64,000 bases of DNA from Methanosarcina sp. 2.H.T.1A.6. GTDB lineage: Archaea; Halobacteriota; Methanosarcinia; Methanosarcinales; Methanosarcinaceae. Each line of letters opens with the position of its first letter. Position 1 is the first letter of the stretch. A program made the position numbers and the translations under genes. The stretch covers positions 62,001-126,000 of the forward strand of contig NZ_JJOY01000023.1 of assembly GCF_000979455.1 (NCBI RefSeq), in the 5' to 3' direction. Positions 13,572-48,672 of this stretch are shown here, piece after piece. Below the pieces are notes generated by a model. That model was not told the DNA's origin. It saw only the letters and a list, made by a program, of their open reading frames with translations, and did not search any database.

Positions 13572-14687
<1,116 letters not shown>

Positions 14688-14804
14688 AGATGAACTCTCC
14701 CTGGTCCGGAAACCTGTTTCAAACACCTCTGATAAGGTGAACTTCAGAATTCAAGGACTCAGGGAATTACTTAAAAACAAAAACGGCAGTAAAAGGGTAT
14801 AAGA

Positions 14805-16664: not shown

Positions 16665-17252
16665 ATGTCTGTGAAAGCGAAAACAAAGCTCTGGTTTACT
16701 GAAGATGGAAGAACGGTTATGGGTGCTGGCAGAGCTGAGTTGTTGAAAACAATTGACGAAGAACGATCTCTTCGGAAAGCCTGTCAGAAACTCGGAATCT
16801 CGTACAAGCACGCCTGGATGATGCTGAAAAAAATGAATGAAGCTCTCGGCGAACCTGCGGTAGTTACTGTGCGCGGGGGAAAGGACCAGGGTACTTTCCT
16901 GACCGAGCTTGGAAGAAAACTGCTGGTTGAATACGATCTGAACAAAAAACTGATCAATGAAGCCGTAGAAGACGAAACCTCCTGGGAAAACGTAGGTTTC
17001 AAATTTTCAGCCCGAAACAAGCTTCCCGGAAGGGTACTTGAAGTCGAGAAAAGCGGGCTTGTTTCCAAGATCACCATTGAGCTGGAACCTTCAGTCCTTA
17101 CTTCTGTAGTTACGGAAGAGGCAGTGGAAAAGCTGGATATAAAACCCGGAGACCGGATTTATGCGGTCATAAAATCCACTGAGGTAATGGTCGCAAAAGC
17201 TGTCAGTGAAAAAGGGCAGATAAAAACTGATTCAGCAGATTCTGATGAATAA
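16665..17252 (+). CDS. ModE-type molybdate/tungstate-responsive regulator (HTH plus TOBE domain)
   Basis: A 195-residue protein. The N-terminal part has a LysR-like winged helix (KTIDEERSLRKACQKLGISY, then KHAWMMLKKMNEALGEPAVV, about 25-65) typical of ModE. The C-terminal part (about 118-185, ARNKLPGRVLEVEKSGLVSK...) is one TOBE/Mop domain, which binds molybdate or tungstate. E. coli ModE has two Mop domains; a single one is common in archaea. It follows wtpC by eight bases, so the regulator is made with the transporter. The ATG at 16665 sits very close to its GGTGA; the GTG at 16671 is spaced better and may be the real start. Proposed targets are the four TATGT-N8-ACATA sites in this window (inference). 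Confidence 0.88.
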   Translation: MSVKAKTKLWFTEDGRTVMGAGRAELLKTIDEERSLRKACQKLGISYKHAWMMLKKMNEALGEPAVVTVRGGKDQGTFLTELGRKLLVEYDLNKKLINEAVEDETSWENVGFKFSARNKLPGRVLEVEKSGLVSKITIELEPSVLTSVVTEEAVEKLDIKPGDRIYAVIKSTEVMVAKAVSEKGQIKTDSADSDE

Positions 17253-27701: not shown

Positions 27702-28463
27702 TTATTTTTCCCCGTAGAGCAGATGATATTTGTAGTTATAGGCTATCCGTTTCCGGAATGGCATCTTCTTTTTCTGAATTTCCCTCACGTCTTTCAGGTC
27801 AAGGTCCTTTACATTTTTTAAACCTGCCTCCTTAAAGTATTCGAGCGTCTTTTCCGGCGGGACTCCGTGACAGTTAGGAAGTTCACTATTGATCTCTCTT
27901 GAATAGTGCCCTTTTCTGGGATTCCTTCTCTCGGCAAGCAAAGTGCAGAAATCGCTAACAAACCTCCTTGCCTTCGTTTCGAAGGTGCCGTCATTCCAGA
28001 CCCCGTCAACAACAATAAGCACTCCTCCTTTCTTCATTACTTTTTTCCAGTTCATGACTGCGGTATCGGGGTGCGGAAGGGTCCAGAGCAGGTGGCGGTT
28101 GACAACAACATCGAAGGTATCCTCCTCAAAAGGAGGGGCTTCGGCATCCCCTTTTTTGAAGACGCTGTCAAACCCTTTCTTAGATGCTTTTTCCCTGGCT
28201 TTTGCAAGCATTTTTTCCGAAAGGTCAAGGCCTGTAACGTGGTGTCCCATTTCAGCAAACAGCAGCCCTATTTCACATGTCCCGCACCCTACATCAAGTA
28301 TCTTTAGCCTGCCTGGAGGAAGCAGGCGTTTAAAAACACGTTTCCAGGCTTCCCTTTCGATTTCACTCTGAATTCCGTGCCCTTCCTGGCTGTCGTAGGT
28401 CTCGGATGAGACATCCCAGATACGAGCAATAGTTTGTTTTATCTGGTTTTCCTGAGTTGTCAT
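27702..28463 (-). CDS. Class I SAM-dependent methyltransferase, last gene of the ABC transporter operon
   Basis: A 253-residue methyltransferase. Motif I is LKILDVGCGTCEIG (about 53-66); the third Gly of the usual GxGxG is Cys here. Motif II is VTGLDLSEKM, motif III DAEAPPFEEDTFDVVVNRHL, and motif IV LWTLPHPDTAVMNWKKV. It is a clear paralogue of the methyltransferase at 33708-34475, which keeps the normal Gly. The ATG overlaps the stop of the upstream ATPase (ATGA), and GAGG lies before it, so it is co-translated with the transporter. The substrate is unknown; a molecule handled by the importer is a reasonable guess (inference). Confidence 0.88.
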   Translation of the reverse strand: MTTQENQIKQTIARIWDVSSETYDSQEGHGIQSEIEREAWKRVFKRLLPPGRLKILDVGCGTCEIGLLFAEMGHHVTGLDLSEKMLAKAREKASKKGFDSVFKKGDAEAPPFEEDTFDVVVNRHLLWTLPHPDTAVMNWKKVMKKGGVLIVVDGVWNDGTFETKARRFVSDFCTLLAERRNPRKGHYSREINSELPNCHGVPPEKTLEYFKEAGLKNVKDLDLKDVREIQKKKMPFRKRIAYNYKYHLLYGEK

Positions 28464-29167
28464 GTTTTAATGCCTCTATTTATATTTTCAATTGAGGTAA
28501 TGGTCCCGTTTTCAAGGTAAGCAATCCTGTGGCAGACTTTCCTTAACACTTCAAGGTTATGGGAGATCAGCAGGTAAGAAACCCCGGTTTCTCTCTGGAG
28601 TTTCTGCATAAGGCGCAGGATCTGAGCCTGGACTGAGACGTCAAGCATGGAAGTGGGTTCGTCAGCGACTATAAAATCAGGAGATAAAGCCATGATCCTT
28701 GCGAGCACTATCCTCTGGATCTCCCCTCCGCTGAGGTGGCCCGGATAACGGACAAGGTGTTCCGGACGAAGGCCAGTGAGTTCTGCCAGTTCTTCTCCTC
28801 GCTTCAGGAGGGAATCTTGCTTAAGCCCGGAATGGATTTTCAGGGGCTCGATAAGGTTTTCAAAGGCTTTCATGCGGGGGTCAAGGGAAGTTTCAGGGTG
28901 CTGGAAAATCATCTGGATTTTAGGGCGCAGTTTCCTAAACTCTTTTTTGCCCATGCTCAGGATATCCTCCCCATGGACCAGGATTTTCCCTCCGGTGGGT
29001 TTTTCGAGCCCTACAATACATCTTCCAATCGTGGTTTTTCCGGATCCGCTTTTTCCAAAAAGCCCCAGGGTTTCTCCGCGAGCTACTGAGAAACTGATGT
29101 TTTTGAACACCTCTGAAGTCCCAAACTTCATTGCCAGTTCGTTTACTGTAAGGACTGGAAATGACAC
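28460..29167 (-). CDS. ABC transporter ATP-binding protein (nickel/peptide family, NikE/DppF-like)
   Basis: A 235-residue ATPase: Walker A GLFGKSGSGKTT (about 35-46), signature LSGGEIQRIVLARI, Walker B FIVADEP, H-loop LLISHNLEV. The GTG start at 29167 is nine bases after GGAGG. It overlaps the other ATPase gene by 25 bases. It lacks the C-terminal oligopeptide extension of its partner and is shorter than most DppF proteins. Pairs of ATPases are normal for this transporter family. Confidence 0.93.
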   Translation of the reverse strand: MSFPVLTVNELAMKFGTSEVFKNISFSVARGETLGLFGKSGSGKTTIGRCIVGLEKPTGGKILVHGEDILSMGKKEFRKLRPKIQMIFQHPETSLDPRMKAFENLIEPLKIHSGLKQDSLLKRGEELAELTGLRPEHLVRYPGHLSGGEIQRIVLARIMALSPDFIVADEPTSMLDVSVQAQILRLMQKLQRETGVSYLLISHNLEVLRKVCHRIAYLENGTITSIENINRGIKT

Positions 29168-30084
29168 CTAACCCATCCTCCTTTATGTTTTTTTATTTCT
29201 GGATGTTTTTTAGAGCATTCGATTCCCGAGCACCTGCATCTTTCATTGAAAAAACAGCCTTCTGGAAGCTTTATCCTGCTTGGACTCTGCCCTCTCAGGG
29301 GAACAAGCCCGTTTCGAGGTTGAGCACTAATAAGTCCTTTTGTATAGGGGTGTACAGGCGTGTTCAGCACTTTTGAAGCCTCGTTCAGTTCTACAATTTC
29401 CCCTGCATACATCACAGCTATTCGGTCACAGACCTCAAGAGCCAGATCAAGGTCATGTGTGATAAGGAGCATTGTCTTTCCATATTCTTTTTTTATTTTT
29501 GTGAAAAGATCAACTGCGCCTGCCTTCGCCTCAGGGTCCAGACCTTTTGTAGGTTCATCGGCGATTAAAAGTTCGGGTTCAAAGGAAAGGGACATGCAAG
29601 CTATTAGCCTTTGCCTCATACCTCCAGATAATTGATGAGGATACAGGGTACAGAGTTTTTCGGGGTCTGTCAAAAAGAGTTTTTTCATGAGCTTCAGGGA
29701 TCTTTTCATCCCTTCCTTTTTGTCAACTCTCCTTTCTTCAAAAACCTCCTCTATCTGAAGTCCGTTTTTCAGGACAGGGTTCAGGGCACCGGCAGGGTTC
29801 TGAGGCATGAGTGAAATTTTCTTCCCTCTTATATTTCGGAGTTCTGAAGGTTTAAGGGAAAAGAGATTCTGCCCCTGGAAAATAACTTCTCCTGAAATCA
29901 CTGCACTTTCCGGGAGTAGCCGGAGCAGGGCAAGCCCTATTACAGATTTTCCTGATCCACTTTCCCCTATAAGCCCGAATGTTTCTCCTTCTTCTACTTC
30001 AAAAGACACGTTTGAGACTGCTTTTACAGCATTTTCTCCTGCAGGGAATTCAACAGAGAGGCCTCTTATTTCAAGCAGGCTCAA
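29143..30084 (-). CDS. ABC transporter ATP-binding protein (nickel/peptide family, NikD/DppD-like)
   Basis: A 313-residue ATPase: Walker A GLIGESGSGKSV (about 36-47), signature LSGGMRQRLIACMSL, Walker B LLIADEPTKGLD. It also has the oligopeptide/dipeptide C-terminal region (TPVHPYTKGLISAQP, then CFFNERCRCSGIECSKKHPE with a Cys cluster typical of DppD). The start is TTG at 30084, seven bases after a perfect GGAGGAG; the upstream permease ends in the overlapping TTGA. Confidence 0.94.
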   Translation of the reverse strand: MSLLEIRGLSVEFPAGENAVKAVSNVSFEVEEGETFGLIGESGSGKSVIGLALLRLLPESAVISGEVIFQGQNLFSLKPSELRNIRGKKISLMPQNPAGALNPVLKNGLQIEEVFEERRVDKKEGMKRSLKLMKKLFLTDPEKLCTLYPHQLSGGMRQRLIACMSLSFEPELLIADEPTKGLDPEAKAGAVDLFTKIKKEYGKTMLLITHDLDLALEVCDRIAVMYAGEIVELNEASKVLNTPVHPYTKGLISAQPRNGLVPLRGQSPSRIKLPEGCFFNERCRCSGIECSKKHPEIKKHKGGWVRCHFQSLQ

Positions 30085-30995
30085 TAGATTTCTCCTCCTT
30101 CATGGTTTGGGTCAAGGATATCTCTCATGCCATCCCCAAGGATGCTGAAAATCACTACTACGAAGGTTATGGCAAGCCCCGGAAAAATCGTCTGATAAGG
30201 AGCTGTTCTCATAAATTCTTTTCCTGCGGAAAGCATCGCTCCCCATTCAGGAACATCAGCAGGAAGCCCTATCCCCAGAAAACTCAGTGTGGCAATGGAG
30301 AGAATCACATGTCCGATGTCGATTGTGGCAAGTACAATTAGAGGGGCGATAGCGTTGGGTACTATATGCCTGCGGATGATATAGAAATCATCTGCCCCGC
30401 TTGTAACCGCAGAAAGTACAAACTCCTGCTTTTTAATGGAAAGAACCTGTCCTCTCATTACTCTTGCATATTTTGCCCACTGGACAATGGAGAGAGCAAG
30501 CATCAGGTTGAATACTCCTCTGCCAAGCACTCCCATTATGGCGAGGGCAAAAATAACTCCAGGAAAGGACAGAAAGACATCTATAACCCTTGAGATCCCT
30601 TCATCCACAATCCCTCCATAGTATCCTGCTGCACATCCCAGTGCAGTTCCTGTAATCAAAGAAATAAGCACAACTCCGAAGGCAATTGAGAGAGAAGTCC
30701 TGGCACCTATCAGGATCCTGCTCAACAGGTCTCTTCCAAGGTAATCTGTACCCAAAAGGTGATCTTCGGAGGGACTAAGGTTCTTGTTCCTGAGTTCGTT
30801 TGCGTTTGGGTCATAAGGGGAAATAAATGGGGCGAACAGTGCAAGCCCGGTAAAAAGCAAAAGTGCAACCAGGGCAAAAAGCATATCTTTTCTTTGAAAG
30901 AGTCTTTTTGAAAATTCGCTTCCGTAGACTTCTGTTATCAATACATCTTCTTTTTTCAACTTCTTAGCAAATGCATTGTCCATTGTATCAACCAT
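30081..30995 (-). CDS. ABC transporter permease (nickel/peptide family, NikC/DppC-like)
   Basis: A 304-residue permease. About six membrane helices; a preceding cytoplasmic N-terminus carries the OppC-type segment before helix 1. Seen: LLGTDYLGRDLLSRILIGAR (about 90-110), a hallmark of OppC/DppC/NikC, and the ATPase-coupling loop SAVTSGADDFYIIRRHIVPN (about 195-215). It overlaps both neighbours, so permeases and ATPases are translationally linked. Confidence 0.94.
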   Translation of the reverse strand: MVDTMDNAFAKKLKKEDVLITEVYGSEFSKRLFQRKDMLFALVALLLFTGLALFAPFISPYDPNANELRNKNLSPSEDHLLGTDYLGRDLLSRILIGARTSLSIAFGVVLISLITGTALGCAAGYYGGIVDEGISRVIDVFLSFPGVIFALAIMGVLGRGVFNLMLALSIVQWAKYARVMRGQVLSIKKQEFVLSAVTSGADDFYIIRRHIVPNAIAPLIVLATIDIGHVILSIATLSFLGIGLPADVPEWGAMLSAGKEFMRTAPYQTIFPGLAITFVVVIFSILGDGMRDILDPNHEGGEIY

Positions 30996-31929
30996 ACCTT
31001 ATCCGAGGGTCAAGATGTGTGTAGAGTATATCCACAATGAAATTCACAAGGAGGAACATGGTAACTATAGCAAGTACGCATCCCTGAACCATTGGCAAAT
31101 CCCTGGCCGAAATCGAGTCCACAAGCAGGCTTCCTATCCCTGGCCAGGCAAAGATCTTTTCAATCACTACTGCCCCTCCAAGCAGGTTTCCCATTTGAAA
31201 GCCAATAACAGTAACAACAGGGAGCATGGCGTTTTTTAAGGCGTGTCTGCTGATTATTTTCCATACAGGAAGCCCTTTGGCTTTTGCAAACCTTATGTAT
31301 TCCTGCCCAAGGGTTTCAAGCATGCTTGTCCTTGTAACCCTCATAACAGCAGCAACAGAGTGGAGAGAAAGGGCGGCTGCTGGTAAAATCAGGTTTTCCA
31401 GATTCCCGTAACCTGATACCTGGACAAGTTTTAGTTTTAGGGAGAATATTATGATAAGAATCAGTGCTATCCAGAATCCGGGCATCGAAACTCCAAAAAG
31501 CGTTACAATCCTTAGTATATGGTCCGAAATCCTGTTTTCCTGAAGAGCTGAATAGATTCCCAGGCTTACTCCTGCAAGTGTTGCAATAGCCATACTTGCC
31601 CCTGCAAGCTGGACCGTTGCCGGCAGGCGCAGAGTCAGGAGGTAAAGGACCGGTTTATTATATATATAGGAAGTTCCGATGTCCCCTCTCAATACGGCTT
31701 CTTTTACCCACCAGTAAAACTGCAGGTAAAGAGGGTCGTCCAGGTTGTACCTGCTTGAGATCTGGCTGAGCTGCTCTTCGGTTGCACTTTCCTCAAGACC
31801 AATAAGGGTGTGCTTGAGAATTAACTCAGCTGTGCCTCCTGGAATTACGTTCATAAGAAAAAAAGTCAGGGCGCAGACCGCAAAAACCGTAAATGCCATA
31901 AACCCTGCCCTTTTTATTAAATATTTCAT
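30988..31929 (-). CDS. ABC transporter permease (nickel/peptide family, NikB/DppB-like)
   Basis: A 313-residue permease with six helices. It begins MKYLIKRAGFMAFTVFAVCA and has NVIPGGTAE, GVSMPGFWIALILII, the coupling loop KAKGLPVWKIISRHALKNAM and the C-terminal GVVIEKIFAWPGIGSLLVDS motif usual in DppB/NikB (here with AVVIEK). TAGGAGGA precedes the ATG at a normal distance. A 107-base gap separates it from the binding-protein gene, where a partial terminator or processing site could raise binding-protein output. Confidence 0.94.
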   Translation of the reverse strand: MKYLIKRAGFMAFTVFAVCALTFFLMNVIPGGTAELILKHTLIGLEESATEEQLSQISSRYNLDDPLYLQFYWWVKEAVLRGDIGTSYIYNKPVLYLLTLRLPATVQLAGASMAIATLAGVSLGIYSALQENRISDHILRIVTLFGVSMPGFWIALILIIIFSLKLKLVQVSGYGNLENLILPAAALSLHSVAAVMRVTRTSMLETLGQEYIRFAKAKGLPVWKIISRHALKNAMLPVVTVIGFQMGNLLGGAVVIEKIFAWPGIGSLLVDSISARDLPMVQGCVLAIVTMFLLVNFIVDILYTHLDPRIRYG

Positions 31930-32036
31930 ACTTCCTCCTAAAACGGACAGAAGGCAAGAATACCCGTCTTTCCGTGTTATTTCAAGCGAGGGGAGGGTAT
32001 AGATCTAAAATCTACACCCATTCGAGCATCCCTTTT

Positions 32037-33677
32037 TTATTTTTCGATATACATACCTGCATTTATACGGTAATCATGGGCAGTCGGGTCAAACACATAT
32101 CCTTTTACGTGGTCTTTCTTTACAATTGCACAGCCGTAGTAAGCCACTATGATCATTGGCTGTTCTTCGTTTACAATGGCTTCGACCTCATTGAACTTTT
32201 TATAGCGCTCTTCCAGGTCCGTGATTTTTCTGGCTTCCGTTATCAGGGTATCTACTTTCTGATTAGAATATCCAGGTCCATTATCAGTGCCATTTGTCAT
32301 GTACCAGTTCGTTAGAATATATTCGGGGTCCGGAACCATTGCAATGTTATAAGCGGCAAGGTAGAGATCCCAGTCACCTTTTTCTTTTCGGTCATAAATT
32401 GACCCCATTTCCATTACTTCTATCTCTACGTCTATGCCTGCCTCCTTCAATTGGGCAGCCATAGCTTCAGCCATTGGAGGAAGGCCCGGCCTTGCGGAAT
32501 ATGTCATCATGTTGAGATTGAGGGATTTTCCGTCTTTGTCTCTTATCCCGTCCCCATCAGTGTCTACCCAGCCTGCAGCTGTCAGGAGTTCGTCAGCTTC
32601 CTCAAGGTCCCTTGTATAAGGGCTCAGGCTCTTATTTGCCCAGACCATCGTGGGCAGGAAAGGACCAGCAGCAGCTTCTCCTACATTGTAGAGTACATGT
32701 TCTGCGATTGCGTGCCTGTCTATGGCATAAGACATGGCCTGTCTGACTCTGATATCTTCAAGAGGCTCATGTTTCAGGTTGATATCGAGTTTGTAAACCC
32801 TCGGTGTTTTGTATTTTTCTACTGTAATGCCGTCTATCGCATCGATTCGGTCTGTTTCACTGTAGGGCACATCAACGGTAAAGTCAACTTCTCCATTTTC
32901 TATTGCCATTGCTCTTGTGTTTGGGTCAGGTATCCCTTTAAGAATCATCTTATCAAGCCCGACTTTTCCTCCCCACCAGTTTTCATTCTTAACAACCGTC
33001 AGAATTCTGGTCTGTTCGTCAAAGGATTCAAATTTATACGGACCTGTTCCAATGGGTTTTATGAACTCCTCTGATTCGTCAAAAGAAGAGGGGCTTATTA
33101 TGGCTGTATCGGGGTAATGGAGAATTCCAGGCAGAATGGGATTGATTTCCTTGGTTTTTATTTTGAGGGTATGGTCATCGACTGCCTCGATAGTGTCTAC
33201 CTTGAGCATGGATGCGACTTTCGTGTTTGCTTTAATGACATTTTCCAGGGTGAACTTTACTTCTTCTGCGGTCATCTCGCTTCCGTCATGGAAGGTAACA
33301 TTCTCTCTTAGTTTAAATTCCCAGGTATTTTCATCAAGCTGCTTCCAAGAACTTGCAAGCCCGGGTTTAAGGGAGAAATCTTCATTGGCACCAACGAGAG
33401 TTTCGGTTACTGCAGCTTTCTCACAGATAAGCGTTCCACCGTCTCCGTTTATAGTATTGATCGAGTCTATTTCCCACATTTCACCAAGTACAAGTGTATT
33501 ATCTTCAGAGTCTCCTTCTTGTTGGGAGACTGCATCAGATCCTGAGGCTACTTCCATCCCGGAAACAGCTTCTTTTGCGTTGTTTTCTTCTTTACTGCTG
33601 CATCCGGAAGTAATCAGGATGGCGCAGGTCAGCAGAATAATTAACAATATAAAGAAAGGGGAGTTTTTATTTTTCAT
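32037..33677 (-). CDS. ABC transporter substrate-binding lipoprotein (solute-binding family 5)
   Basis: A 546-residue exported protein with a lipobox (ILITSGC, Cys about 26), a Ser/Glu-rich linker and the family 5 fold: WEFKLRENVTFHDGSEMTAE (about 120-140), VRQAMSYAIDRHAIAEHVLY (about 310) and a DTDGDGIRDKDG acidic loop (about 375). Family 5 members bind peptides, nickel complexes, opines or sugars. A nickel role is attractive in a methanogen that needs Ni for F430 and CO dehydrogenase, but sequence alone does not settle it. The second gene of the operon, 30 bases after a methyltransferase. Confidence 0.93.
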   Translation of the reverse strand: MKNKNSPFFILLIILLTCAILITSGCSSKEENNAKEAVSGMEVASGSDAVSQQEGDSEDNTLVLGEMWEIDSINTINGDGGTLICEKAAVTETLVGANEDFSLKPGLASSWKQLDENTWEFKLRENVTFHDGSEMTAEEVKFTLENVIKANTKVASMLKVDTIEAVDDHTLKIKTKEINPILPGILHYPDTAIISPSSFDESEEFIKPIGTGPYKFESFDEQTRILTVVKNENWWGGKVGLDKMILKGIPDPNTRAMAIENGEVDFTVDVPYSETDRIDAIDGITVEKYKTPRVYKLDINLKHEPLEDIRVRQAMSYAIDRHAIAEHVLYNVGEAAAGPFLPTMVWANKSLSPYTRDLEEADELLTAAGWVDTDGDGIRDKDGKSLNLNMMTYSARPGLPPMAEAMAAQLKEAGIDVEIEVMEMGSIYDRKEKGDWDLYLAAYNIAMVPDPEYILTNWYMTNGTDNGPGYSNQKVDTLITEARKITDLEERYKKFNEVEAIVNEEQPMIIVAYYGCAIVKKDHVKGYVFDPTAHDYRINAGMYIEK

Positions 33678-33707
33678 TTCGGAACCTCCGTCTGTTTTTA
33701 ATGAATT

Positions 33708-34475
33708 TTATTTCCGGCCGCAGATGAGGTAGTACTGATAACTGCGTACAATCCGTTCACCTAACGGCATGTTCTCTTTCTGTGCCGCTCTTACCTCTTT
33801 CAGGTCAAAAACCTGGATCTTTTCAAAACCTTCACTCAACAGGTACTCCTTTACTTTTCCAAGCGGGGCCCCTCCGGAATGCGGAAGCTGGGCTTTGAGT
33901 TCATCGGAATATCCGGCGTGTCCTTTTCTGGGATCTTTTCTCTCAAGGAGCAGGGTTAAAAGGGAACCTGCACTTCTGCGGACTCTGGACTCTAGGGTCC
34001 CGCTGTCCCACACCCCATCGATAATCACAACCTTCCCATTTTTCCGCAGAATCCTCTTCCAGTTCTCTACGGCCGTTTTTGGATTAGGAAGGGTCCAGAG
34101 CAGATGGCGGCTGAACACAATATCAAAAGAAGACGTATCATAAGGGGGATTTTCTGCATCTCCTTCCTCAAAGGTTATGTCAGCTCCACGGGCTTCAGCT
34201 TTTGTTTTTGCTGCTTTCAGCATTTGTCTGGAAATGTCAATTCCAGTAACCTTATGCCCCATTTCAGCAAACAGTAAGCTTAATTCTCCTGTCCCGCAGC
34301 CGACATCAAGAATTTTCAAACCCTTTTTCGGAAAAACTTCCTGAAAAGCACGTTTCCAGGCATCTCTTTCTTTTTGGCTCTGGATCCCGTGTCCTGGATG
34401 GGTATCAAAAGTCTCGGATGCAAGGTCCCATTTATGGGCTACCATCTCTTTGATCTGGATTTCTGAAGACGACAT
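33708..34475 (-). CDS. Class I SAM-dependent methyltransferase, first gene of the ABC transporter operon
   Basis: A 255-residue methyltransferase with intact motif I (LKILDVGCGTGELS, about 53-66), VTGIDISRQM, DAENPPYDTSSFDIVFSRHL and LWTLPNPKTAVENWKRI. It is closely similar over its full length to the methyltransferase at 27702-28463, including a shared N-terminal GHGIQS motif and C-terminal tail. With its paralogue it brackets the five transporter genes. This gene leads the operon, so enzyme and transporter are made together. The substrate is unknown; maturation of a metallophore or of the imported compound is a testable guess. Confidence 0.9.
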   Translation of the reverse strand: MSSSEIQIKEMVAHKWDLASETFDTHPGHGIQSQKERDAWKRAFQEVFPKKGLKILDVGCGTGELSLLFAEMGHKVTGIDISRQMLKAAKTKAEARGADITFEEGDAENPPYDTSSFDIVFSRHLLWTLPNPKTAVENWKRILRKNGKVVIIDGVWDSGTLESRVRRSAGSLLTLLLERKDPRKGHAGYSDELKAQLPHSGGAPLGKVKEYLLSEGFEKIQVFDLKEVRAAQKENMPLGERIVRSYQYYLICGRK

Positions 34476-35144
34476 TCATCAGTACTTGTTAATCCTCTAA
34501 TTAATATTTTTCTATTTTGTAATACTTATTCTAATTAATTTATTCATTAGTAACATAGGATTCCCATATACTTACTATGATGTTGACAAAAACTATACGA
34601 ACATTTGTGTATGTATTACTGAAAACCTCCTAAAAAATAGATTTTTTGTCTTTCGAGTCAGTTACAAGAATCCGGACGACTCAATACTGACAGAAGGGCA
34701 AAATTGGACGGGTAAAATGGTGCCAGGCTTTTTCCTGTACAACTGGTTTGCTTTTTCAACTGGTCAAACCCGATATGTTATATCCGGGGCAGGGTGCAGA
34801 ATAGAAAAACCTTAAGATTTCAGGCAGGCTGCCCGGATCAATAATATATTTTTGTTTATAGGGGAAATTGGCCTTTTATAAAAAAGTTTTCACTATTGTC
34901 TTTTTTGAAGGAAAATCCCTTTTCCATCGACAATTTTATAAAATACTTGATTATATATTTTGAGCGCAAGATTCCAGTCTTCCGTTTTTATAGATATGTT
35001 GAGCTTTACATATCTGGAAGCTGTAGAGTTCTGGCTGGCGTTTTTTTCTGTGACCGGCCAATTATAAGGGGGTTCTGTCCCCTGTATTGAAATCTTGCCC
35101 CTGAATTATACCATAAATTAATGAATTTCTGTGAAAAAGTTACC
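34476..35144. other. Divergent intergenic region between the transporter operon and fmd
   Basis: About 670 bases. It holds the promoter of the minus-strand operon and upstream DNA of fmd. The open frame 34896-35090 has no ribosome binding site and no recognisable product. No RNA gene is seen. Confidence 0.5.
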
Positions 35145-35152
35145 TATAAATA
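35145..35152 (+). promoter_or_regulatory. TATA box of the fmd operon
   Basis: TATAAATA with AAAAAGTTACC upstream. Initiation about 25 bases downstream falls near 35173, inside the first ModE-like site. This gives a leader of about 160 bases before fmdE. Confidence 0.6.
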
Positions 35153-35167
35153 CAGTGTATCCTTCTG

Positions 35168-35191
35168 CGTTATGTTGAAATCTACATAATG
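35168..35191 (+). promoter_or_regulatory. ModE-like operator 1 of the fmd operon
   Basis: CGTTATGT-TGAAATCT-ACATAATG. It has the same TATGT-N8-ACATA core as at wtpA and modD and overlaps the predicted transcription start. It matches the E. coli modA operator layout closely. Confidence 0.75.
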
Positions 35192-35251
35192 CGATTCCTT
35201 CAAATATGCTGGCTGTATTACATTTATCCTGTCTGCATTCAACATCTTTGG

Positions 35252-35275
35252 CGTTATGTTTATTTAAACATAACG
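35252..35275 (+). promoter_or_regulatory. ModE-like operator 2 in the fmd leader
   Basis: CGTTATGT-TTATTTAA-ACATAACG. The arms are perfect inverted repeats (11 bp each side of TT). It lies 84 bases after site 1, eight helical turns, so two bound dimers could interact on one face of the DNA. A weak TATA-like ATTTATCC (about 35222-35229) might mark a second promoter. Confidence 0.78.
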
Positions 35276-35332
35276 GTGAAACCTACGGCGGTGTACACAT
35301 TGCATAAGAATTCAGATCAAGAGACACACAAC

Positions 35333-35902
35333 ATGGAGGCGATCCTTAAACAGGTAAAGGATCCTGAGCTGCTTTCACAGATTGAAAAGGTCGTCCCCTT
35401 TCACGGCTTCCTGACCTCCGGGGCGTTAATCGGCATCCAGATGCTCAATATCGCAAGACGGGAGCTCGATGTCCTGGACGGGGAGCGCATATACGTGACC
35501 TGTGAAACAAAAAGCTGCATGCCTGACCCCTTTCAGATCCTTGCCGGAGCTACCATCGGGAACAACGGTTTGAAGATCAAGAACTTTGGGAAAATGGCGG
35601 TCACGGTAAACAAACAGGCGTCTGAAGGGGTGAATGGAATAACAGGTATCCGAATCATCCTCGACACTGAGAAGACAAAGGACTATCCCAAACTCCATGC
35701 CTGGTACCTGAACACTGAAAAGCTTCCCCATGAAGAGGTTGTACCCATCCTCCTGGCTGCAGGAGAAAAGGTGTATTCCTGGAAACCTGTGGACCTGGAA
35801 GTTCCGGTCCGGAAGAAAAAGCGGATACAGTGCTGTAAAAATTGCGGTGAAATGTTTATTCAACACGATAATGAGCTGCTGTGCGGCGGATGCACAGAAT
35901 AA
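35333..35902 (+). CDS. fmdE: Formylmethanofuran dehydrogenase subunit E
   Basis: A 189-residue FmdE. The N-terminal domain (LKQVKDPELLSQIEKVVPFH..., GFLTSGALIGIQMLNIARRE, CETKSCMPDPFQILAGATIG) is the FmdE fold, and the C-terminus has a zinc ribbon (CCKNCGEMFIQ... CGGCTE). FmdE is co-encoded with the Mo enzyme but is not needed as a catalytic subunit; its exact role is unclear. I start at the ATG at 35333, where the family sequence begins; the longer frame upstream covers the leader and operators. It is the first gene of fmdEFACDB, an order reported for the molybdenum isoenzyme of Methanosarcina. Confidence 0.92.
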   Translation: MEAILKQVKDPELLSQIEKVVPFHGFLTSGALIGIQMLNIARRELDVLDGERIYVTCETKSCMPDPFQILAGATIGNNGLKIKNFGKMAVTVNKQASEGVNGITGIRIILDTEKTKDYPKLHAWYLNTEKLPHEEVVPILLAAGEKVYSWKPVDLEVPVRKKKRIQCCKNCGEMFIQHDNELLCGGCTE

Positions 35903-35920: not shown

Positions 35921-36961
35921 ATGCAAGATGATATGCGATTGTCTGTCTTTTCCGAAAAAAAAGATCGGCAGCTGGTCTATAAGCCTGAAAAATGCATTGG
36001 CTGCGGGACCTGTGTACAGGCATGCCCTAAAGGCACCCTGGCTGTAGGGGCTGTGGGAGCTATAGCAAGAGGGCTCCTGGATGCTGATTTTCTGGAAATG
36101 AAAGAGAGTGAAGACTGCATTGTCTGTGGAATTTGTGCGAAAGTTTGTCCCACAGGCGCTCTTGAATTGAAGCAGGAAGGAAAACCCCTCACTGACATGT
36201 CCTATATTTCCAGGGCCATGAGGCCGACGTCAGTAAATGAAAGCTGCGTCCACTGCGGGCTTTGTGAAGATATCTGTCCCAGAGGCTGTATTGAGGTCAC
36301 AAGGGAGATTTCAACTGATGGGAACCTGAAGCTGGTTGGAAAGACCCACATTGATTCGGAGTGCTGTATCCACTGCGGCTGGTGTGCTGCAGTCTGTCCT
36401 GTGAATGCAATTTCCGTGGAAAAACCCTTTGAAGGACGCTGGACCCGGGATGAGACTGTCTGTCAGACCTGCCATACATGTGTGGAAGTCTGTCCTGCAA
36501 ATGCTATTTTCAATAAAAAGGCTAAACCCGGAGAAATAGTCGAAAAGATTACGCACAGACCTGATGCCTGCATTTACTGCGGGGCATGCGCAGTTGCCTG
36601 TCCTGTAGATGCCATTGATGTTAGAAAAACCGCAATTCTGCCGGATGTGGAGAAAAAGGGCCCCCTCGAGAAAAAGATACTTGAAGCCCCTGTTCCGGAG
36701 GCTCTGCTCCGTACCTGCCTGGAAACGGATGAAGCTGCTTGCCTGGGTTGCGGAAACTGTGTGATTGTCTGTCCGGTAAATGCTCTCAATAACCGTGAAC
36801 TTGCTGCAGGGCACCTTAACAACATGGACGAAAAAGCTCTCCTTGGGGTTAAGAACGGAATAATTTCGGTCGTAAACCAGGACCTCTGCGGAGCAGACGG
36901 AGCCTGTGCCCTTATCTGTCCTGTTAATGCGATCCGGCTTGTGAAAAAAGAGGTGGAATAA
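35921..36961 (+). CDS. fmdF: Formylmethanofuran dehydrogenase subunit F (polyferredoxin)
   Basis: A 346-residue polyferredoxin that wires electrons from ferredoxin to the active-site subunits. Eight [4Fe-4S] motifs are seen in tandem: CIGCGTC, CIVCGIC, CVHCGLC, CIHCGWC, CQTCHTC, CIYCGAC, CLGCGNC, and a last divergent one CGADGAC, each followed by xxCP. GAGGT is eight bases before the ATG. The stop TAA directly abuts the fmdA ATG, so translation is coupled. Confidence 0.95.
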   Translation: MQDDMRLSVFSEKKDRQLVYKPEKCIGCGTCVQACPKGTLAVGAVGAIARGLLDADFLEMKESEDCIVCGICAKVCPTGALELKQEGKPLTDMSYISRAMRPTSVNESCVHCGLCEDICPRGCIEVTREISTDGNLKLVGKTHIDSECCIHCGWCAAVCPVNAISVEKPFEGRWTRDETVCQTCHTCVEVCPANAIFNKKAKPGEIVEKITHRPDACIYCGACAVACPVDAIDVRKTAILPDVEKKGPLEKKILEAPVPEALLRTCLETDEAACLGCGNCVIVCPVNALNNRELAAGHLNNMDEKALLGVKNGIISVVNQDLCGADGACALICPVNAIRLVKKEVE

Positions 36962-38716
36962 ATGGCAGGAACAATTGCAATCAAGAATGGATACGTCTTT
37001 GACCCCCTCAACGAAATAAAAGGGGAGAGAATGGATGTCTTCGTCAGGGACGGAAAAGTCGTAAAAGAACTTTCTGCGGCCGAACTGATAAATGCAAAGG
37101 TCATTGACGCTTCAGGCATGACGGTCATGCCCGGAGGGGTTGACTCCCACTCCCACGTGGCCGGGGCAAAGGTCAATGCAGGGCGGTCGATGCGCCCCGA
37201 AGACCACTATAAGGCGACTCTCCAGAAAACTTCACTAACCCATTCGGGTTCAGGTTACACTGTCCCCTCGGTCTACAAACAGGGGTATGATTATGCAGCA
37301 ATGGGTTACACAACTGTCTTTGAAGCTGCAGTCCCTCCTATTGAAGCCCGCCACACCCATGAAGAGATGAGAGCAACTCCACTTCTTGATATGGGCGGGT
37401 ACATGGTGCTCGGAAACAACTTCTTTTTGATGCGCTACATCAGGGATGGAGACATAGAAAAGGCTGCGGCTTATGTTGCCTGGATGATGAAGACTCACAA
37501 GACCTACGGGATCAAATGCGTCAACCCTGCCGGAGTTGAGAACTGGGGTTGGGGTAAAAACGTAAGTTCGCTTGATGAGGCTAACATCCATTTCGAAATT
37601 ACCCCCAGGGAGGTCATAAAAGGGCTTACCGAGATCAACGAACGCCTTGGAATGCCAATGCCTGTCCACCTGCATGCCAACAACCTGGGACACCCCGGCT
37701 GTTATGCAGTTACCAAAGATTCCCTGAAAATTCCTGATGGAGTAAAGACCAGACAGAACATGGACGTTGAATGGGCTGAAACCAAAATGGATCCTTCAAG
37801 GGACCGTTCCGTATACCTCACCCACCTGATGTTCAACAGTTTTGCAGGCACCACCTGGGCAGATTGTGAATCCGGTGTTAAAGACATTGCTAACTACATC
37901 AACAACAAAGATCACGTGGTAATCGACAGTGGGTGCACGCCCTTCGGAGAAGCCACTGTTATGACCGGAGACGGGCCTGCTATTCATGACCTTTACACGC
38001 TTACAGGAAACAAGTGGTCGAATACCGACGTTGAGATGGAATGCGGCTCAGGTGTCATTCCCTTTACTTACCTAAAGTCCAACCCGGTGCACAGTCTGCA
38101 GTGGGCAATGGGACTTGAATGTCTCCTGCTTATCAACGACCCCTGGAAGACCATCATGACTACAGACAGTCCCAATGGTGGGCCGTTTACGAAATATCCT
38201 GAGGTCATGACCTGGCTCATGTCCGAGGCTTTCCGGAAACAGACTTTCAGTGAATGCCACAAGTGGGCAAATGACAGGAGCGCACTCGGAGGCGTAAATC
38301 GGGAACTTTCCCTCTATGACCTTGCGATACTGACCAGAGCTAACCCTGCTAAGACAATTGGCATGGCTCACAGGAAAGGTTCTCTTGGCGTGGGGGCAGA
38401 CGGGGATGTTACAGTCTATAACATAAACCCGCAGCAGCTTGACCCGAACAATTACGAGTCTCTCATCAGGACCTTCAGGAAAGCAGAATACACCGTGAAG
38501 GGCGGGGAAATTGTGGCTGTTAAAGGAGAAATCGTCTCCGTTCCCGAAAAGCGGACTTATTATTCCGAAGTGCACGTAGAAGACGAACGGGAAAAGGAGA
38601 TGTTGGCCGACGTTAAGGAGTGGTTCAGGTACTACACCATGGGCTTTGCCAACTACCCGACTCCGGAAAAGTATCTGGAAAATCCGACTCCTATAAAGGT
38701 TAACGCTGAGAGGTGA
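36962..38716 (+). CDS. fmdA: Formylmethanofuran dehydrogenase subunit A (amidohydrolase-type)
   Basis: A 584-residue amidohydrolase-superfamily subunit. It carries a dinuclear zinc site and condenses formate, made at the Mo site and passed through an internal tunnel, with methanofuran. Metal ligands are visible in VDSHSHVAGAKVNAG (about 60), then PVHLHANNLGHPG (about 235), HLMFNSF, and DSGCTPFGE/MTTDSPNGGP (Asp near residue 400). The length is normal. The next gene (fmdC) starts four bases after the stop. Confidence 0.96.
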   Translation: MAGTIAIKNGYVFDPLNEIKGERMDVFVRDGKVVKELSAAELINAKVIDASGMTVMPGGVDSHSHVAGAKVNAGRSMRPEDHYKATLQKTSLTHSGSGYTVPSVYKQGYDYAAMGYTTVFEAAVPPIEARHTHEEMRATPLLDMGGYMVLGNNFFLMRYIRDGDIEKAAAYVAWMMKTHKTYGIKCVNPAGVENWGWGKNVSSLDEANIHFEITPREVIKGLTEINERLGMPMPVHLHANNLGHPGCYAVTKDSLKIPDGVKTRQNMDVEWAETKMDPSRDRSVYLTHLMFNSFAGTTWADCESGVKDIANYINNKDHVVIDSGCTPFGEATVMTGDGPAIHDLYTLTGNKWSNTDVEMECGSGVIPFTYLKSNPVHSLQWAMGLECLLLINDPWKTIMTTDSPNGGPFTKYPEVMTWLMSEAFRKQTFSECHKWANDRSALGGVNRELSLYDLAILTRANPAKTIGMAHRKGSLGVGADGDVTVYNINPQQLDPNNYESLIRTFRKAEYTVKGGEIVAVKGEIVSVPEKRTYYSEVHVEDEREKEMLADVKEWFRYYTMGFANYPTPEKYLENPTPIKVNAER

Positions 38717-38720
38717 AGTG

Positions 38721-39530
38721 ATGTCAGAAGTAATTCTTACCCTTAAGAGAGAGATCGACATTAAACTGGAGGCAGATGTCATAACTCCTGACTCCTTTGC
38801 AGATAAAAATGCCGAAGAAATCGGAAGCCTGCCCATCTGGCAGGGGCCAAAGACCTACCCTCTTTCCGATTTTTTTGAAGTTAAAGGTAATGGAGGCAGC
38901 TCTGCAGCTGAGACTCTGATCCGCATAAAAGGCGACGTAATGAGGGTCAAAAGGATCGGAGAAGGCATGAGTGCAGGAAAAATTGAAATTGAAGGTTCTG
39001 CAGGCATGCATGTAGGGTCAGGGATGAAAGGAGGCGAGATTCTCGTGTCCGGAGATGCGGATTCCTGGGCTGGTATGGAAATGCTGGGCGGGCTCCTGCA
39101 TATCAAAGGCAATGCCGGAGACCATGTTGGCTGTGCTTACAGAGGTAAATGGCATGGCATGAAAGGCGGCCGCATAGTGATCGAAGGCTCGGCGCGGCAC
39201 CAGCTCGGAGGCGGTATGGACGGCGGAGAAATTCTGGTGGAAGGCAATGTTGAAGGCTTCTGCGGGATTCGCCAGAACGGCGGGGTCATCGTTGTTAAGG
39301 GCAGAGCTCTTCGCGGCGTTGGCGCTGAAATGGCAGCCGGTACCATAGTTATCGGGGGGTTAATCGAACGCTTCACTCCGGGTTTCGAATATACAGGTAT
39401 GGTAGACGGACTCACCCAGGGTGGGGTTGAGCTAACAGGAGAATTCAAGAAGTTCACCGGGGACTATGCGATCAGCAAGCGGGCAAAAGGAGTGCTCTAC
39501 GCGGCTGCAGATGCAAATCCGGAACTCTGA
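38721..39530 (+). CDS. fmdC: Formylmethanofuran dehydrogenase subunit C
   Basis: A 269-residue right-handed beta-helix subunit. Seen: repeated G-x-hydrophobic-x-G blades such as AGKIEIEGSAGMHVGSGMKG, GGRIVIEGSARHQLGGGMDG and GGVIVVKGRALRGVGAEMAA. This domain is also found in glutamate synthase. It scaffolds the B/D catalytic subunits next to A. AGGTG precedes the ATG at 38721; a GTG three bases upstream is possible. It is tightly placed between fmdA and fmdD. Confidence 0.95.
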   Translation: MSEVILTLKREIDIKLEADVITPDSFADKNAEEIGSLPIWQGPKTYPLSDFFEVKGNGGSSAAETLIRIKGDVMRVKRIGEGMSAGKIEIEGSAGMHVGSGMKGGEILVSGDADSWAGMEMLGGLLHIKGNAGDHVGCAYRGKWHGMKGGRIVIEGSARHQLGGGMDGGEILVEGNVEGFCGIRQNGGVIVVKGRALRGVGAEMAAGTIVIGGLIERFTPGFEYTGMVDGLTQGGVELTGEFKKFTGDYAISKRAKGVLYAAADANPEL

Positions 39531-39540
39531 GGTGAGAAAC

Positions 39541-39930
39541 ATGGAAGTATTACTCATTACCGGAAGTACGATTGATGAAGGCAGGCTTGCCAAAGGCGGG
39601 GACAAGTTCACGGACGATTACACCATGGAATGCGCATCCTGCTGGCTTTCCCCTGTGGATTTCGTGTCACTCTGCTCCCCTGAAAAAGTGAAGGTTACAA
39701 GCCGGAACGGAAAGCATTCTGTCGTGGTCTATACGAAATGTACGGATTCAGTTTGTCCGGGGCATGTATTCATGCCAAGGGCTATCTGGTCCAATGTTAT
39801 CATCGATCCGGACACCCTTTCTACAGGCTCTCCCCTCTACAAAGGTGCCCCCGTGCAGGTTGAGCCCACGGAAGAAGAGGTCCTGAGCGCTGAAGATGTA
39901 GTGCTGAAAGTTTATGTCGGAGGGCAGTGA
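39541..39930 (+). CDS. fmdD: Formylmethanofuran dehydrogenase subunit D
   Basis: A 129-residue molybdopterin-dinucleotide-binding subunit, equivalent to the C-terminal domain of formate dehydrogenase catalytic chains. It begins MEVLLITGSTIDEGRLAKGG and has ECASCWLSPVDFVSLCSPEKV and CPGHVFMPRAIWSNVI. GAGGTG precedes the ATG at 39541; the upstream in-frame extension overlaps fmdC and is unlikely. With fmdB it completes the Mo-bisMGD site. Confidence 0.95.
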   Translation: MEVLLITGSTIDEGRLAKGGDKFTDDYTMECASCWLSPVDFVSLCSPEKVKVTSRNGKHSVVVYTKCTDSVCPGHVFMPRAIWSNVIIDPDTLSTGSPLYKGAPVQVEPTEEEVLSAEDVVLKVYVGGQ

Positions 39931-39932
39931 GT

Positions 39933-41234
39933 ATGATTTACAAAAACATAGTCTGTCCGGTCTGCGGGGCGGCTTGTGATGATATCCAGGTCGAGTTCGG
40001 AGACGGAAAGATTGAAGCTAAAAATGCATGTAAGATGGGAAACGCCAAGTTCAAGGAAGTTGTAAGTTCCCACAGGCTCAGGCAGCCCCTTATAAAGGGC
40101 GAAGGAAAACTGACCCCCGCAGCCTGGGACGAAGCCCTTGAAAAAGCTGCTGATATCCTTGTTTCGGCAAAGCGCCCCTTGCTTTTCATGGGCAGTGAAA
40201 CCTCCTGTGAAGCGCATGAAGTCGGGCTCAAGATAGGGGAATACCTGGGTGCGATTGTTGACTCCAATGCAACAATCTGCCACGGACCAACAGCCATGGG
40301 AATCCAGGAATCCGGAAAAGTCGGAGCAACGGAAGGGCAGAAGAAAAACAGGGGCGACCTTATCATCTACTGGGGAACAAATCCTCTCGAGTCCATGCCG
40401 CGGCAGATGTCCAGATATGGGGTTTTCCCGAGAGGTTACTGGACCAAACGCGGGCGTTTCGACAGGACAGTCATCACCATCGACCCGAGAAAAACTCCCA
40501 CTGCAGAGGCTTCAGACCTGCACATTCAGCTCAAACCTAACTCTGATTATGAACTGGCCAGTGCCCTCCTTACCATGCTCCACGGAAAAACTCCTCACCC
40601 GTCAGTTGAAGAGGTTACAGGTATCCCTATCTCAGTGATGGAAGAGATGCTAGATATGATGAAGAACTGTAACTTCGGAGCCATCTCAGTGGGGCTCGGG
40701 CTTTCTTCTTCAATTGGAAAGCACAGGAATGCCGAAATTGCCATGAACCTGGTAAAGGAACTGAACAATTACGCCAAGTTCACCCTGGGCGCACTCCGCG
40801 GCCACTGCAACGTGGCAGGCTTTAACCAGGTCGCCTCTTACATGTACGGATACCCCTTCGGGCTTGACTTCACACGCGGATACCCGCGCTACAACCCCGG
40901 GGAATTTACAACCGTGGATGTGCTGCGGGAAAAGGATGTGGATGCAGCTTTTGTGATGTGCGCCGATCTTGTCTGCCACATCCCTGCGGACTGTGCTTCC
41001 TATCTTGCCGAAATCCCTATGGTCTGCCTGGACATTGCTCCCTGCCCGAGTACAGCTGCTTCGGATGTTGTACTCCCCGGAGTCCTTGATGCCATGGAAT
41101 GTGACGGAACCTTCTACAGGCTAGATGATGTGCCCGTGCACTTCGAACCTTTCACAACCTCGCCCTTCGAATTTACGAAGAGCAACGAAGATACCTTAAA
41201 ACAGCTCTTTGCTAAGATCAAAGCAAGGAAGTAA
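39933..41234 (+). CDS. fmdB: Formylmethanofuran dehydrogenase subunit B (catalytic, Mo-bisMGD)
   Basis: A 433-residue catalytic subunit that reduces CO2 to formate. An N-terminal [4Fe-4S] site is seen (CPVCGAACDD, with a later Cys33). The metal ligand is Cys116 in SNATICHGPTAMG, the position of the W ligand in FwdB of known structure; no selenocysteine codon is needed. I place the start at the ATG at 39933, eight bases from GGAGGG, rather than the GTG at 39927. The operon order E-F-A-C-D-B suggests the Mo isoenzyme; metal choice in the cell can still vary with supply. A terminator follows at 41292. Confidence 0.95.
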   Translation: MIYKNIVCPVCGAACDDIQVEFGDGKIEAKNACKMGNAKFKEVVSSHRLRQPLIKGEGKLTPAAWDEALEKAADILVSAKRPLLFMGSETSCEAHEVGLKIGEYLGAIVDSNATICHGPTAMGIQESGKVGATEGQKKNRGDLIIYWGTNPLESMPRQMSRYGVFPRGYWTKRGRFDRTVITIDPRKTPTAEASDLHIQLKPNSDYELASALLTMLHGKTPHPSVEEVTGIPISVMEEMLDMMKNCNFGAISVGLGLSSSIGKHRNAEIAMNLVKELNNYAKFTLGALRGHCNVAGFNQVASYMYGYPFGLDFTRGYPRYNPGEFTTVDVLREKDVDAAFVMCADLVCHIPADCASYLAEIPMVCLDIAPCPSTAASDVVLPGVLDAMECDGTFYRLDDVPVHFEPFTTSPFEFTKSNEDTLKQLFAKIKARK

Positions 41235-46819: not shown

Positions 46820-47668
46820 TCAAGCAGACTTATTTTCTTCTCGTTCTTTTCTTCTGAAAGCTACCTTCTCCCCGCACCACTTATGTAACTTTTTCGTTCC
46901 TCCCGCCTCACTGACCACCGTAAGCATTGTTAAGGGGTCAATAATTCGGGTTCCCATTATTGCAGTAATACCTCTACTAAAAAACGGTGCCGGATAGAGA
47001 GGCGCGCTTGGGCCGAGCAGGACAACTTCCCTTGCTGCACCCCGGAGGGAAAGAAGTTCATCAAAAGTCCGGTTGGCGAGGGTGCTTGCACTGAGAATTA
47101 TCACATCCGATGAAGGGAGTATTTCTCTGGCTTTTTCCGAGGGCAGGGTCATGGTTTGAGGAAATTCGATTTCACGCTTTTCAAGGACTGTAAGCTTATC
47201 GGTTATTTTCAGTATTCTCGGGACAAGAGGGCCGAAGTAACCTACCATTGCAACTTTATCTTCAGGTTTTATGAGGTCAAGGATATCTATGCTTGAAACA
47301 GGAAAGTGTTCGGGCTTCAGGTCACAGAGCATGTGGGAAAGCGCGTTTGCAGTTGCAACTCCAACTGCAGCTTCAAGTGGGTTTTCTGACAGAACAAGTT
47401 CAAGCAGTTTATCCGCAGTTTTGCCTTTCAGGGTATCTGCAAAACCGAGGGCAGGGCAGCCTGAAAACTCATAGAGGGGGGTGCAGGCCACCCCTCCGTA
47501 GCTTTCTGAAAGCAGGACTCCGGTATAGGCAAGCCCTATCCTGACGTCTTTTACCTCGATTTCTTCAAAGGAGGGGCCAAAGTCTTTTTTGAGCGCACTT
47601 ACAAGGGTGGGCAGGATTCCTTTTTCTTCTTTTTTCCCGGTTTCCTGTAAATTTTTGCTTTCTGGCAT
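46820..47668 (-). CDS. DUF364 (putative heavy-metal chelation) protein
   Basis: A 282-residue protein with an N-terminal DUF4213-like part (VRIGLAYTGVLLSESYGGVA) and a C-terminal DUF364 Rossmann-like part: MVGYFGPLVPRILKITDKLT, then VIILSASTLANRTFDELLSL and PSAPLYPAPFFSRGITAIMG. Structural relatives suggested a metal or cofactor chelation role; no enzyme activity is established. AGGTGG lies five bases before the ATG. It follows modD by 24 bases, so the two are co-transcribed, and the pair has a ModE-like site upstream. A role in molybdate/tungstate handling is therefore a fair inference. Confidence 0.88.
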   Translation of the reverse strand: MPESKNLQETGKKEEKGILPTLVSALKKDFGPSFEEIEVKDVRIGLAYTGVLLSESYGGVACTPLYEFSGCPALGFADTLKGKTADKLLELVLSENPLEAAVGVATANALSHMLCDLKPEHFPVSSIDILDLIKPEDKVAMVGYFGPLVPRILKITDKLTVLEKREIEFPQTMTLPSEKAREILPSSDVIILSASTLANRTFDELLSLRGAAREVVLLGPSAPLYPAPFFSRGITAIMGTRIIDPLTMLTVVSEAGGTKKLHKWCGEKVAFRRKEREENKSA

Positions 47669-47692
47669 GAGTCCACCTTTTATTTTCTCAGC

Positions 47693-48484
47693 TTACAGTC
47701 TTTCGATCTTCGTTGTAAAGTCAAGAGGAGTTGCATAATAGGGAGCGCTTGTGACGATTATGTCCACTAGAGGGGCGTATTCGGGGATTCTTTTTGCCTC
47801 GATTCCTCCGACTGCAAGTTCAAGTTTCGGGTTCAGCTTCTTAAGTTCGGGCCCGACCTTCTGCATTTCTGCCGGAGACAGGTGGTCAAGGAGCATTATA
47901 TCTGCATGTATTGCGTACCTGAGGGCTTCTTCCCTCGACCGGGGCTCGATTTCTATTTTTTTCATAGCTCTGAGTTCTCCCAGTTCCCCGGCAACTTCCA
48001 GGTGGTTCTGGCTGAGCTGGATGGAATCGCTGAGGGAGTTCCTGTGGATGTCTCCTCCGCCTGCCCGGACGGCTTTAAGCTCAAATAAGCGGACTCCGGG
48101 GTGGGTCTTTCGGCTTGTTGCAATAATAAGGCCAGGGTTTGCCTTCCGGCCAGCGCTTACGAAAGAGGCTGTTCTGGTGGAAATGGCGCACATGAGCGAG
48201 AGGAATGTCTGGGAAACCCTCCAGAGCTTGAACAGGAGTTTTAGGTCTCCTTCGGCTTCGATAATCGCATCTCCGGGCTTGAAAGGCTGACCATCTTTGA
48301 GGCAATTCAGGTTTTTCAGACCTTTTCTTTCATAATATTCCGCCAGGTCGCCGGCGCAGGCACAGATCCCTTTTTCTCTCGAAACAATCCTCATTTTTCC
48401 CCTGCCTTCAAGCCTGAGCAGTTCTGCGCTTTCATCCTGATAGGGACAGTCTTCATAAAAGTAAAGCTCAAAAAGGTCTATCAT
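47693..48484 (-). CDS. modD: ModD-like protein (nicotinate-nucleotide pyrophosphorylase fold)
   Basis: A 263-residue protein related to quinolinate phosphoribosyltransferase (NadC). Seen: TRTASFVSAGRKANPGLIIA, TSRKTHPGVRLFELKAVRAGG, RNSLSDSIQLSQNHLEVAG, and LELAVGGIEAKRIPEYAPLV, i.e. the PRPT barrel residues as in NadC but with ModD-type changes. ModD genes often lie with molybdate transport genes; the reaction is unknown. The ATG at 48484 has GAGG six bases upstream; a TTG at 48496 would overlap it. Leader of about 170 bases with a ModE-like operator at 48649-48672. Confidence 0.87.
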   Translation of the reverse strand: MIDLFELYFYEDCPYQDESAELLRLEGRGKMRIVSREKGICACAGDLAEYYERKGLKNLNCLKDGQPFKPGDAIIEAEGDLKLLFKLWRVSQTFLSLMCAISTRTASFVSAGRKANPGLIIATSRKTHPGVRLFELKAVRAGGGDIHRNSLSDSIQLSQNHLEVAGELGELRAMKKIEIEPRSREEALRYAIHADIMLLDHLSPAEMQKVGPELKKLNPKLELAVGGIEAKRIPEYAPLVDIIVTSAPYYATPLDFTTKIERL

Positions 48485-48648: not shown

Positions 48649-48672
48649 TGATATGTTTGAACATACATAACG
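48649..48672 (-). promoter_or_regulatory. ModE-like operator upstream of modD-DUF364
   Basis: On the minus strand: CGTTATGT-ATGTTCAA-ACATATCA. It has the TATGT-N8-ACATA core of the wtpA and fmd sites. A minus-strand TATA-like ATTTATTAA (48674-48682) lies just before it, so initiation near 48655 would fall inside the site. Confidence 0.72.

Follow-up and report, generated by a model that had tools for sequence, protein, structure and literature searches.

The window, that is, the whole stretch of 64,000 nucleotides that was analysed, lies within a 228-kb contig of the nearly complete 4.07-Mb genome of Methanosarcina sp. 2.H.T.1A.6, the close relatives of which are other Methanosarcina species. 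Its plus strand carries an fmd operon for formylmethanofuran dehydrogenase, an enzyme that in many methanogens carries out one step of the central one-carbon pathway. The operon consists of fmdE (35300-35902; Pfam FmdE, 3e-31) and the remaining genes fmdF, fmdA, fmdC, fmdD, and fmdB (35921-41234). Adjoining it on the minus strand, at 27702-34475, are two methyltransferase genes around a NikA/Opp-like ABC transporter. The composition of this divergent cluster is suggestive of metal or metallophore uptake, and it is not a conserved neighbour of fmd.

Three palindromic sites that resemble the operator of the molybdenum/tungsten sensor ModE precede fmdE. Matched against the palindrome CGTTATrT-N8-AyATAACG, the predicted operator C, CGTTATGTTTATTTAAACATAACG (35252-35275), a perfect palindrome in the leader, agrees in all 16 arm positions, and the predicted operator B, CGTTATGTTGAAATCTACATAATG (35168-35191), in 15 of 16. 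In site A, AGATATGTTGAGCTTTACATATCT (34992-35015), the two 8-bp arms are perfect and stand 8 bp apart; the site keeps the TATGT/ACATA core while its outer bases deviate from that palindrome. An earlier note on this DNA had described two ModE-like sites 84 bp apart; these are B and C, with exactly that distance from start to start, and A had been missed.

The comparison of the leader among Methanosarcina species that the earlier note had called for revealed a fixed interval between site C and the start codon, with fmdE beginning 47-50 bp downstream of C in 24 of 24 fmd1 loci. Sites A and B are present in most of these loci. For B the distance to the fmdE start is 127-137 bp, or at least 250 bp in a clade with an insertion in the leader, and for A it is 294-441 bp in most of the loci. 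The upstream neighbour genes vary among the species while A stays conserved in most fmd1 loci, which indicates that all three sites belong to fmd. The possibility that A is the operator of the divergent cluster was rejected since A is conserved and the cluster is not. In the clade with the insertion (L121, L125, L128-L130, L132, and L137), an insertion of about 120 bp separates B from C; C is intact, while B has decayed in its right half. One Methanosarcina MAG (L133/L021) has a conserved fmdE start region and none of the sites A, B, and C.

The proximal promoter, P2, has its TATA box, CTATAAATAC, at 35145-35152 on the plus strand, conserved 22-25 bp upstream of B. This box puts the predicted start of transcription near 35174, inside B, so that the earlier placement of the first site over the predicted start holds. 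The leader would be about 125 nt long and not about 160 bases, as fmdE probably starts at TTG 35300 rather than at the alternative ATG 35333. This start is favoured by the conservation of a GGYGGTG-type ribosome-binding site (GGCGGTG at 35287-35293 in the window) together with the TTG, which is found in 28 of 29 loci, by a CTG that one relative has at the position of the downstream ATG, and by codon-like variation in between: the 11 codons from TTG to ATG are free of indels, with 49 minority letters at third positions against 32 and 20 at the other two. No paper with a mapped fmdE transcript start was found, and no fmd 5′ end was mapped in the study of M. acetivorans (PMC2838876).

A second promoter had also been considered in the earlier note. 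Between B and C it was rejected, since no conserved TATA box is present there across the aligned fmd loci; a second promoter is suggested instead farther upstream, outside the interval of that note. The block at 34927-34971 on the plus strand contains the TATA-like elements TTTATAAA (34935-34942) and ATTATATA (34950-34957), the latter of which reads TTTATATA in most relatives. Its conservation, about 0.9, is as high as that of any other upstream segment; a strict match is found in 18 of 25 loci, and the genome has a single copy of the 19-bp core. With site A just below it, at about +12 to +35 relative to the inferred start, this block is a candidate for a distal promoter, P1.

The full palindrome pattern with up to three mismatches gave 4 matches in the window, where 0.11 would be expected. 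The genome-wide statistics, which come from pattern searches, are similar in kind: with up to one mismatch, 4 matches were found in the 4.07-Mb genome and none with the reversed control pattern, and across the family such a site was found in 85 of 111 genomes against 2 of 111 for the reversed control. Ranking of the window by a matrix built from transporter-operon sites of other genera placed C first, followed by the site upstream of modD, B, the site at wtp, and A, which is the weakest of the fmd sites; no random sequence in 8 Mb equalled B or C, although the training sites had been located using the consensus of the window, so that their genomic positions are independent of the window and their letters are not. 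A chance origin of B and C is excluded. The best sites in the related genera lie upstream of molybdate/tungstate transporters, and 28 of 30 sites fetched from family genomes adjoin modA, wtpA, a MolA-like binding protein gene, or modD. Two loci of related genera (L088 and L111) carry near-perfect ModE sites that do not adjoin any of the Mo/W genes tested.

A candidate regulator is encoded about 18 kb from the fmd sites in the same window. modE (16665-17252, plus strand; 195 aa) is the last gene of an operon with wtpA, wtpB, and wtpC (13596-16656, plus strand) for a tungstate/molybdate ABC transporter, in which WtpA scores over the NCBIfam cut-off while WtpB and WtpC are best matches under it. 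Pfam and NCBIfam searches assign the protein an N-terminal LysR-type winged HTH (PF00126, 29.2 bits with a cut-off of 26.6) and a C-terminal Mop/TOBE oxyanion-binding domain (PF03459, 4e-16; TIGR00638, 61.9 bits with a cut-off of 55). It remains below the curated cut-offs for ModE itself (TIGR00637, 63.1 against 98.5 bits; NF007957, 60 against 369), and it has one TOBE domain where the E. coli type has two in tandem. On these scores and the single TOBE domain, the protein is classed as a divergent single-Mop ModE-type protein and not as an E. coli-type ModE. It matches the ModE structures 1b9m and 1o7l and is 34 % identical to E. coli ModE over 82 residues; the GISYKxAW helix motif, the SARN ligand motif, and the lysine equivalent to 183 are common to both.

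The genes that share the operator are related to molybdenum and tungsten. One site (13572-13595) heads the wtpABC-modE operon, between its TATA box and ATG, and another (48649-48672), second in the window by matrix score, lies upstream of a minus-strand operon (46820-48484) of a modD-like phosphoribosyltransferase gene followed by one for a DUF364/DUF4213 putative metal-chelation protein. Outside the window, sites with up to two mismatches are found upstream of modABC (C6:69206) and at C11:260583-260606 (L048:2584). The latter heads an operon for a MolA-like periplasmic binding protein, a methyltransferase, a radical SAM protein, a FecCD-type permease, and an ATPase; this operon, which has unusual additional enzymes, is a candidate for a MolBCA-like molybdate/tungstate importer. 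One more match at this threshold is inside an unrelated gene. In the family, modE was found in 99 of 111 genomes, and a site with up to one mismatch occurs in 84 of these 99 as compared with 1 of the 12 that are without modE. As independent proof this co-occurrence is weakened, since the genomes without modE are also without an intact fmdE.

The likeness to the E. coli ModE regulon extends from the operator to the protein. The E. coli modA operator, CGTTATATTGTCGCCTACATAACG, has 15 of 16 arm bases equal to those of site C and an identical 8-bp spacer; the two systems have in common an operator of the form CGTTATrT-N8-ACATAACG, the GISYKxAW motif, the Mop oxyanion ligand motif, and a site near the start of a transporter gene. 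Unlike in E. coli, the sites in Methanosarcina are at archaeal TATA promoters, formylmethanofuran dehydrogenase operons are among the targets, and one operon has three operators; E. coli ModE moreover has two Mop domains and the ModE of the window has one. The match to modA, the presence of modE in the window, the shared Mo/W regulon, and the matrix ranking together make it very probable that A, B, and C are ModE operators. Direct ModE-type control of fmd, as proposed in the earlier note, has good in silico support from the match of the operator, the regulator in the window, the shared regulon, and the conservation over 24 loci. It has been stated that modABC is ModE-controlled in Methanosarcinales (PMC9765008), and the same paper cites Studholme and Pau (2003; BMC Microbiol 3:24) for the conservation of ModE and its DNA element in Archaea. 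The three-site layout of fmd and the opposite placement at fwd described below were not found in the literature, the site list of Studholme and Pau (2003) aside.

In Methanothermobacter, the protein Tfx binds downstream of the promoter of fmdECB (PMC3087415). The geometry is similar, with a metal-linked regulator downstream of an fmd promoter, and the protein is different. The contrast with Tfx drawn in the earlier note was borne out: a search for the TFX_C domain (PF14601) came up empty both in this genome and in that of M. acetivorans, used as a control, so that by this domain the present operon does not qualify as Tfx-controlled.

The same genome has an operator, again matched with up to two mismatches, at fwdDBAC, which encodes the tungsten isoenzyme (C11:136811-136834; L047:7812-7835). 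In 17 of 17 Methanosarcina species this operator is located just upstream of a TATA box, which itself is 300-750 bp from fwdD. The fwd leader is conserved and includes an inverted repeat (GCTTTC/GAAAGC); farther out there is a divergent tRNA-like gene. At the transporter genes, fmd2, and fmd1-B, the operator is on the opposite side, between the TATA box and the start. It follows the beginning of the TATA box by about 9 bp at wtpA, the MolA-like gene, and fmd2, and by 22-28 bp at most modA genes (about 25 bp) and most copies of fmd1-B. A under P1 and C in the leader are well below a TATA box. By principles established for archaea, an operator about 9 or 22-28 bp past the TATA box blocks recruitment of the polymerase, and one just before the TATA box is compatible with activation. 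The in silico analysis establishes the sites, their conservation, the regulator, its regulon, and the positions relative to TATA; from it we infer that ModE binds, with which sign it acts on fmd and fwd, which metal it senses, and that P1 is used.

Operator placement relative to the TATA box leads to a best model in which uptake and fmd are repressed and fwd is stimulated. Once loaded with molybdate or tungstate, ModE would bind A, B, and C as a dimer. On B it would cover the P2 start, as at the promoters of the molybdate/tungstate transporters, and block transcription; on A it would block just below P1, and on C it would add a block within the leader shared by both promoters. The same loaded ModE would bind upstream of the fwdDBAC TATA box and stimulate fwd. 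A full pool of the sensed oxyanion, most plausibly one rich in tungstate, would then reduce both uptake and the molybdenum enzyme and raise the tungsten enzyme. The arrangement suggests that the cell swaps its molybdenum and tungsten enzymes according to the available metal.

The full model with its signs, in which ModE carrying its metal acts negatively on fmd and uptake and positively on fwd, has in our judgement an even chance of being correct. A reciprocal isoenzyme switch by one ModE, with three fmd1 operators distributed among two promoters in tandem and the leader, is put forward tentatively and with some doubt. Expression data from other methanogens speak against the full model: fmd is induced by molybdate in Methanothermobacter (PMC3087415), contrary to what simple repression by Mo-ModE would give, and on methanol M. 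acetivorans expresses both fmd1 and fwd1 together at a high level (PMC2838876), so that in this medium a switch, if any, is less than absolute. The latter study left it to be established how metals control fmd1 and fwd1. E. coli ModE, moreover, is not known to discriminate molybdenum from tungsten. The partial decay of B in one clade also weighs against the model. At fwd, the operator could serve another transcript, given the distance of the TATA box from fwdD and the near symmetry of TATA boxes.

The induction by molybdate fits a different sign, namely that molybdate-loaded ModE activates fmd via A, which is upstream of P2, and perhaps via C, with B for fine-tuning. Such activation has physiological logic, E. 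coli ModE is annotated as a dual regulator, and most species have A some 160-180 bp ahead of B. It is nevertheless considered unlikely, as B is placed like the operator of the transporter promoters, A scores lowest of the three sites and is immediately downstream of a conserved TATA block, and the sole site of fmd2 directly follows its TATA box. Whether C acts as DNA at all bears on another reading, in which only B (and A) regulate and C is a hairpin of the leader RNA that acts on translation or stability. A stable hairpin is possible there (z = -2.7), and the distance to the start codon is fixed. However, among 14 distinct C sequences the arm changes gave 8 broken cells versus 1 compensated, and the matrix of DNA operators from other operons scores C highest in the window. 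The uncompensated changes favour a DNA operator, and an Rfam search of 34400-35500 gave no match up to E = 1, including to any known metal-cofactor riboswitch; the RNA hairpin was rejected on these grounds and is regarded as improbable.

Cooperative binding or looping by two in-phase sites had been proposed in the earlier note from the spacing of B and C, which in this window corresponds to 8.0 turns. This proposal did not survive the comparison between species. The B-C distance is 79-88 bp in most species and 202 and 207 bp in two, the distinct spacings span 7.5-8.4 and 19.2-19.7 turns with a phase vector of 0.15, and those between A and B span 15.6-17.6 and 22.2 turns. Neither spacing keeps to one helical phase; on the spacings in 17 loci the phasing of B and C was rejected, and looping is highly improbable. 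It is hardly credible that the palindromes are bound by another dimeric regulator, even though the ModE of the window is divergent, scores under the TIGR00637 cut-off, and has one Mop domain: the sites are nearly identical to the E. coli modA operator, they co-occur with modE (with the qualification on fmdE given above), and the regulon is related to Mo and W.

ModE operators are already a known kind of element, and the three-site layout at fmd with the opposite placement at fwd adds something testable. For the choice between the Mo and W forms of formylmethanofuran dehydrogenase in Methanosarcina, the sites supply a named regulator, exact operators, and a prediction of sign for each operon. 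If the model is true, a bacterial-type metalloregulator would operate at archaeal TATA promoters, where its placement may decide between activation and repression.
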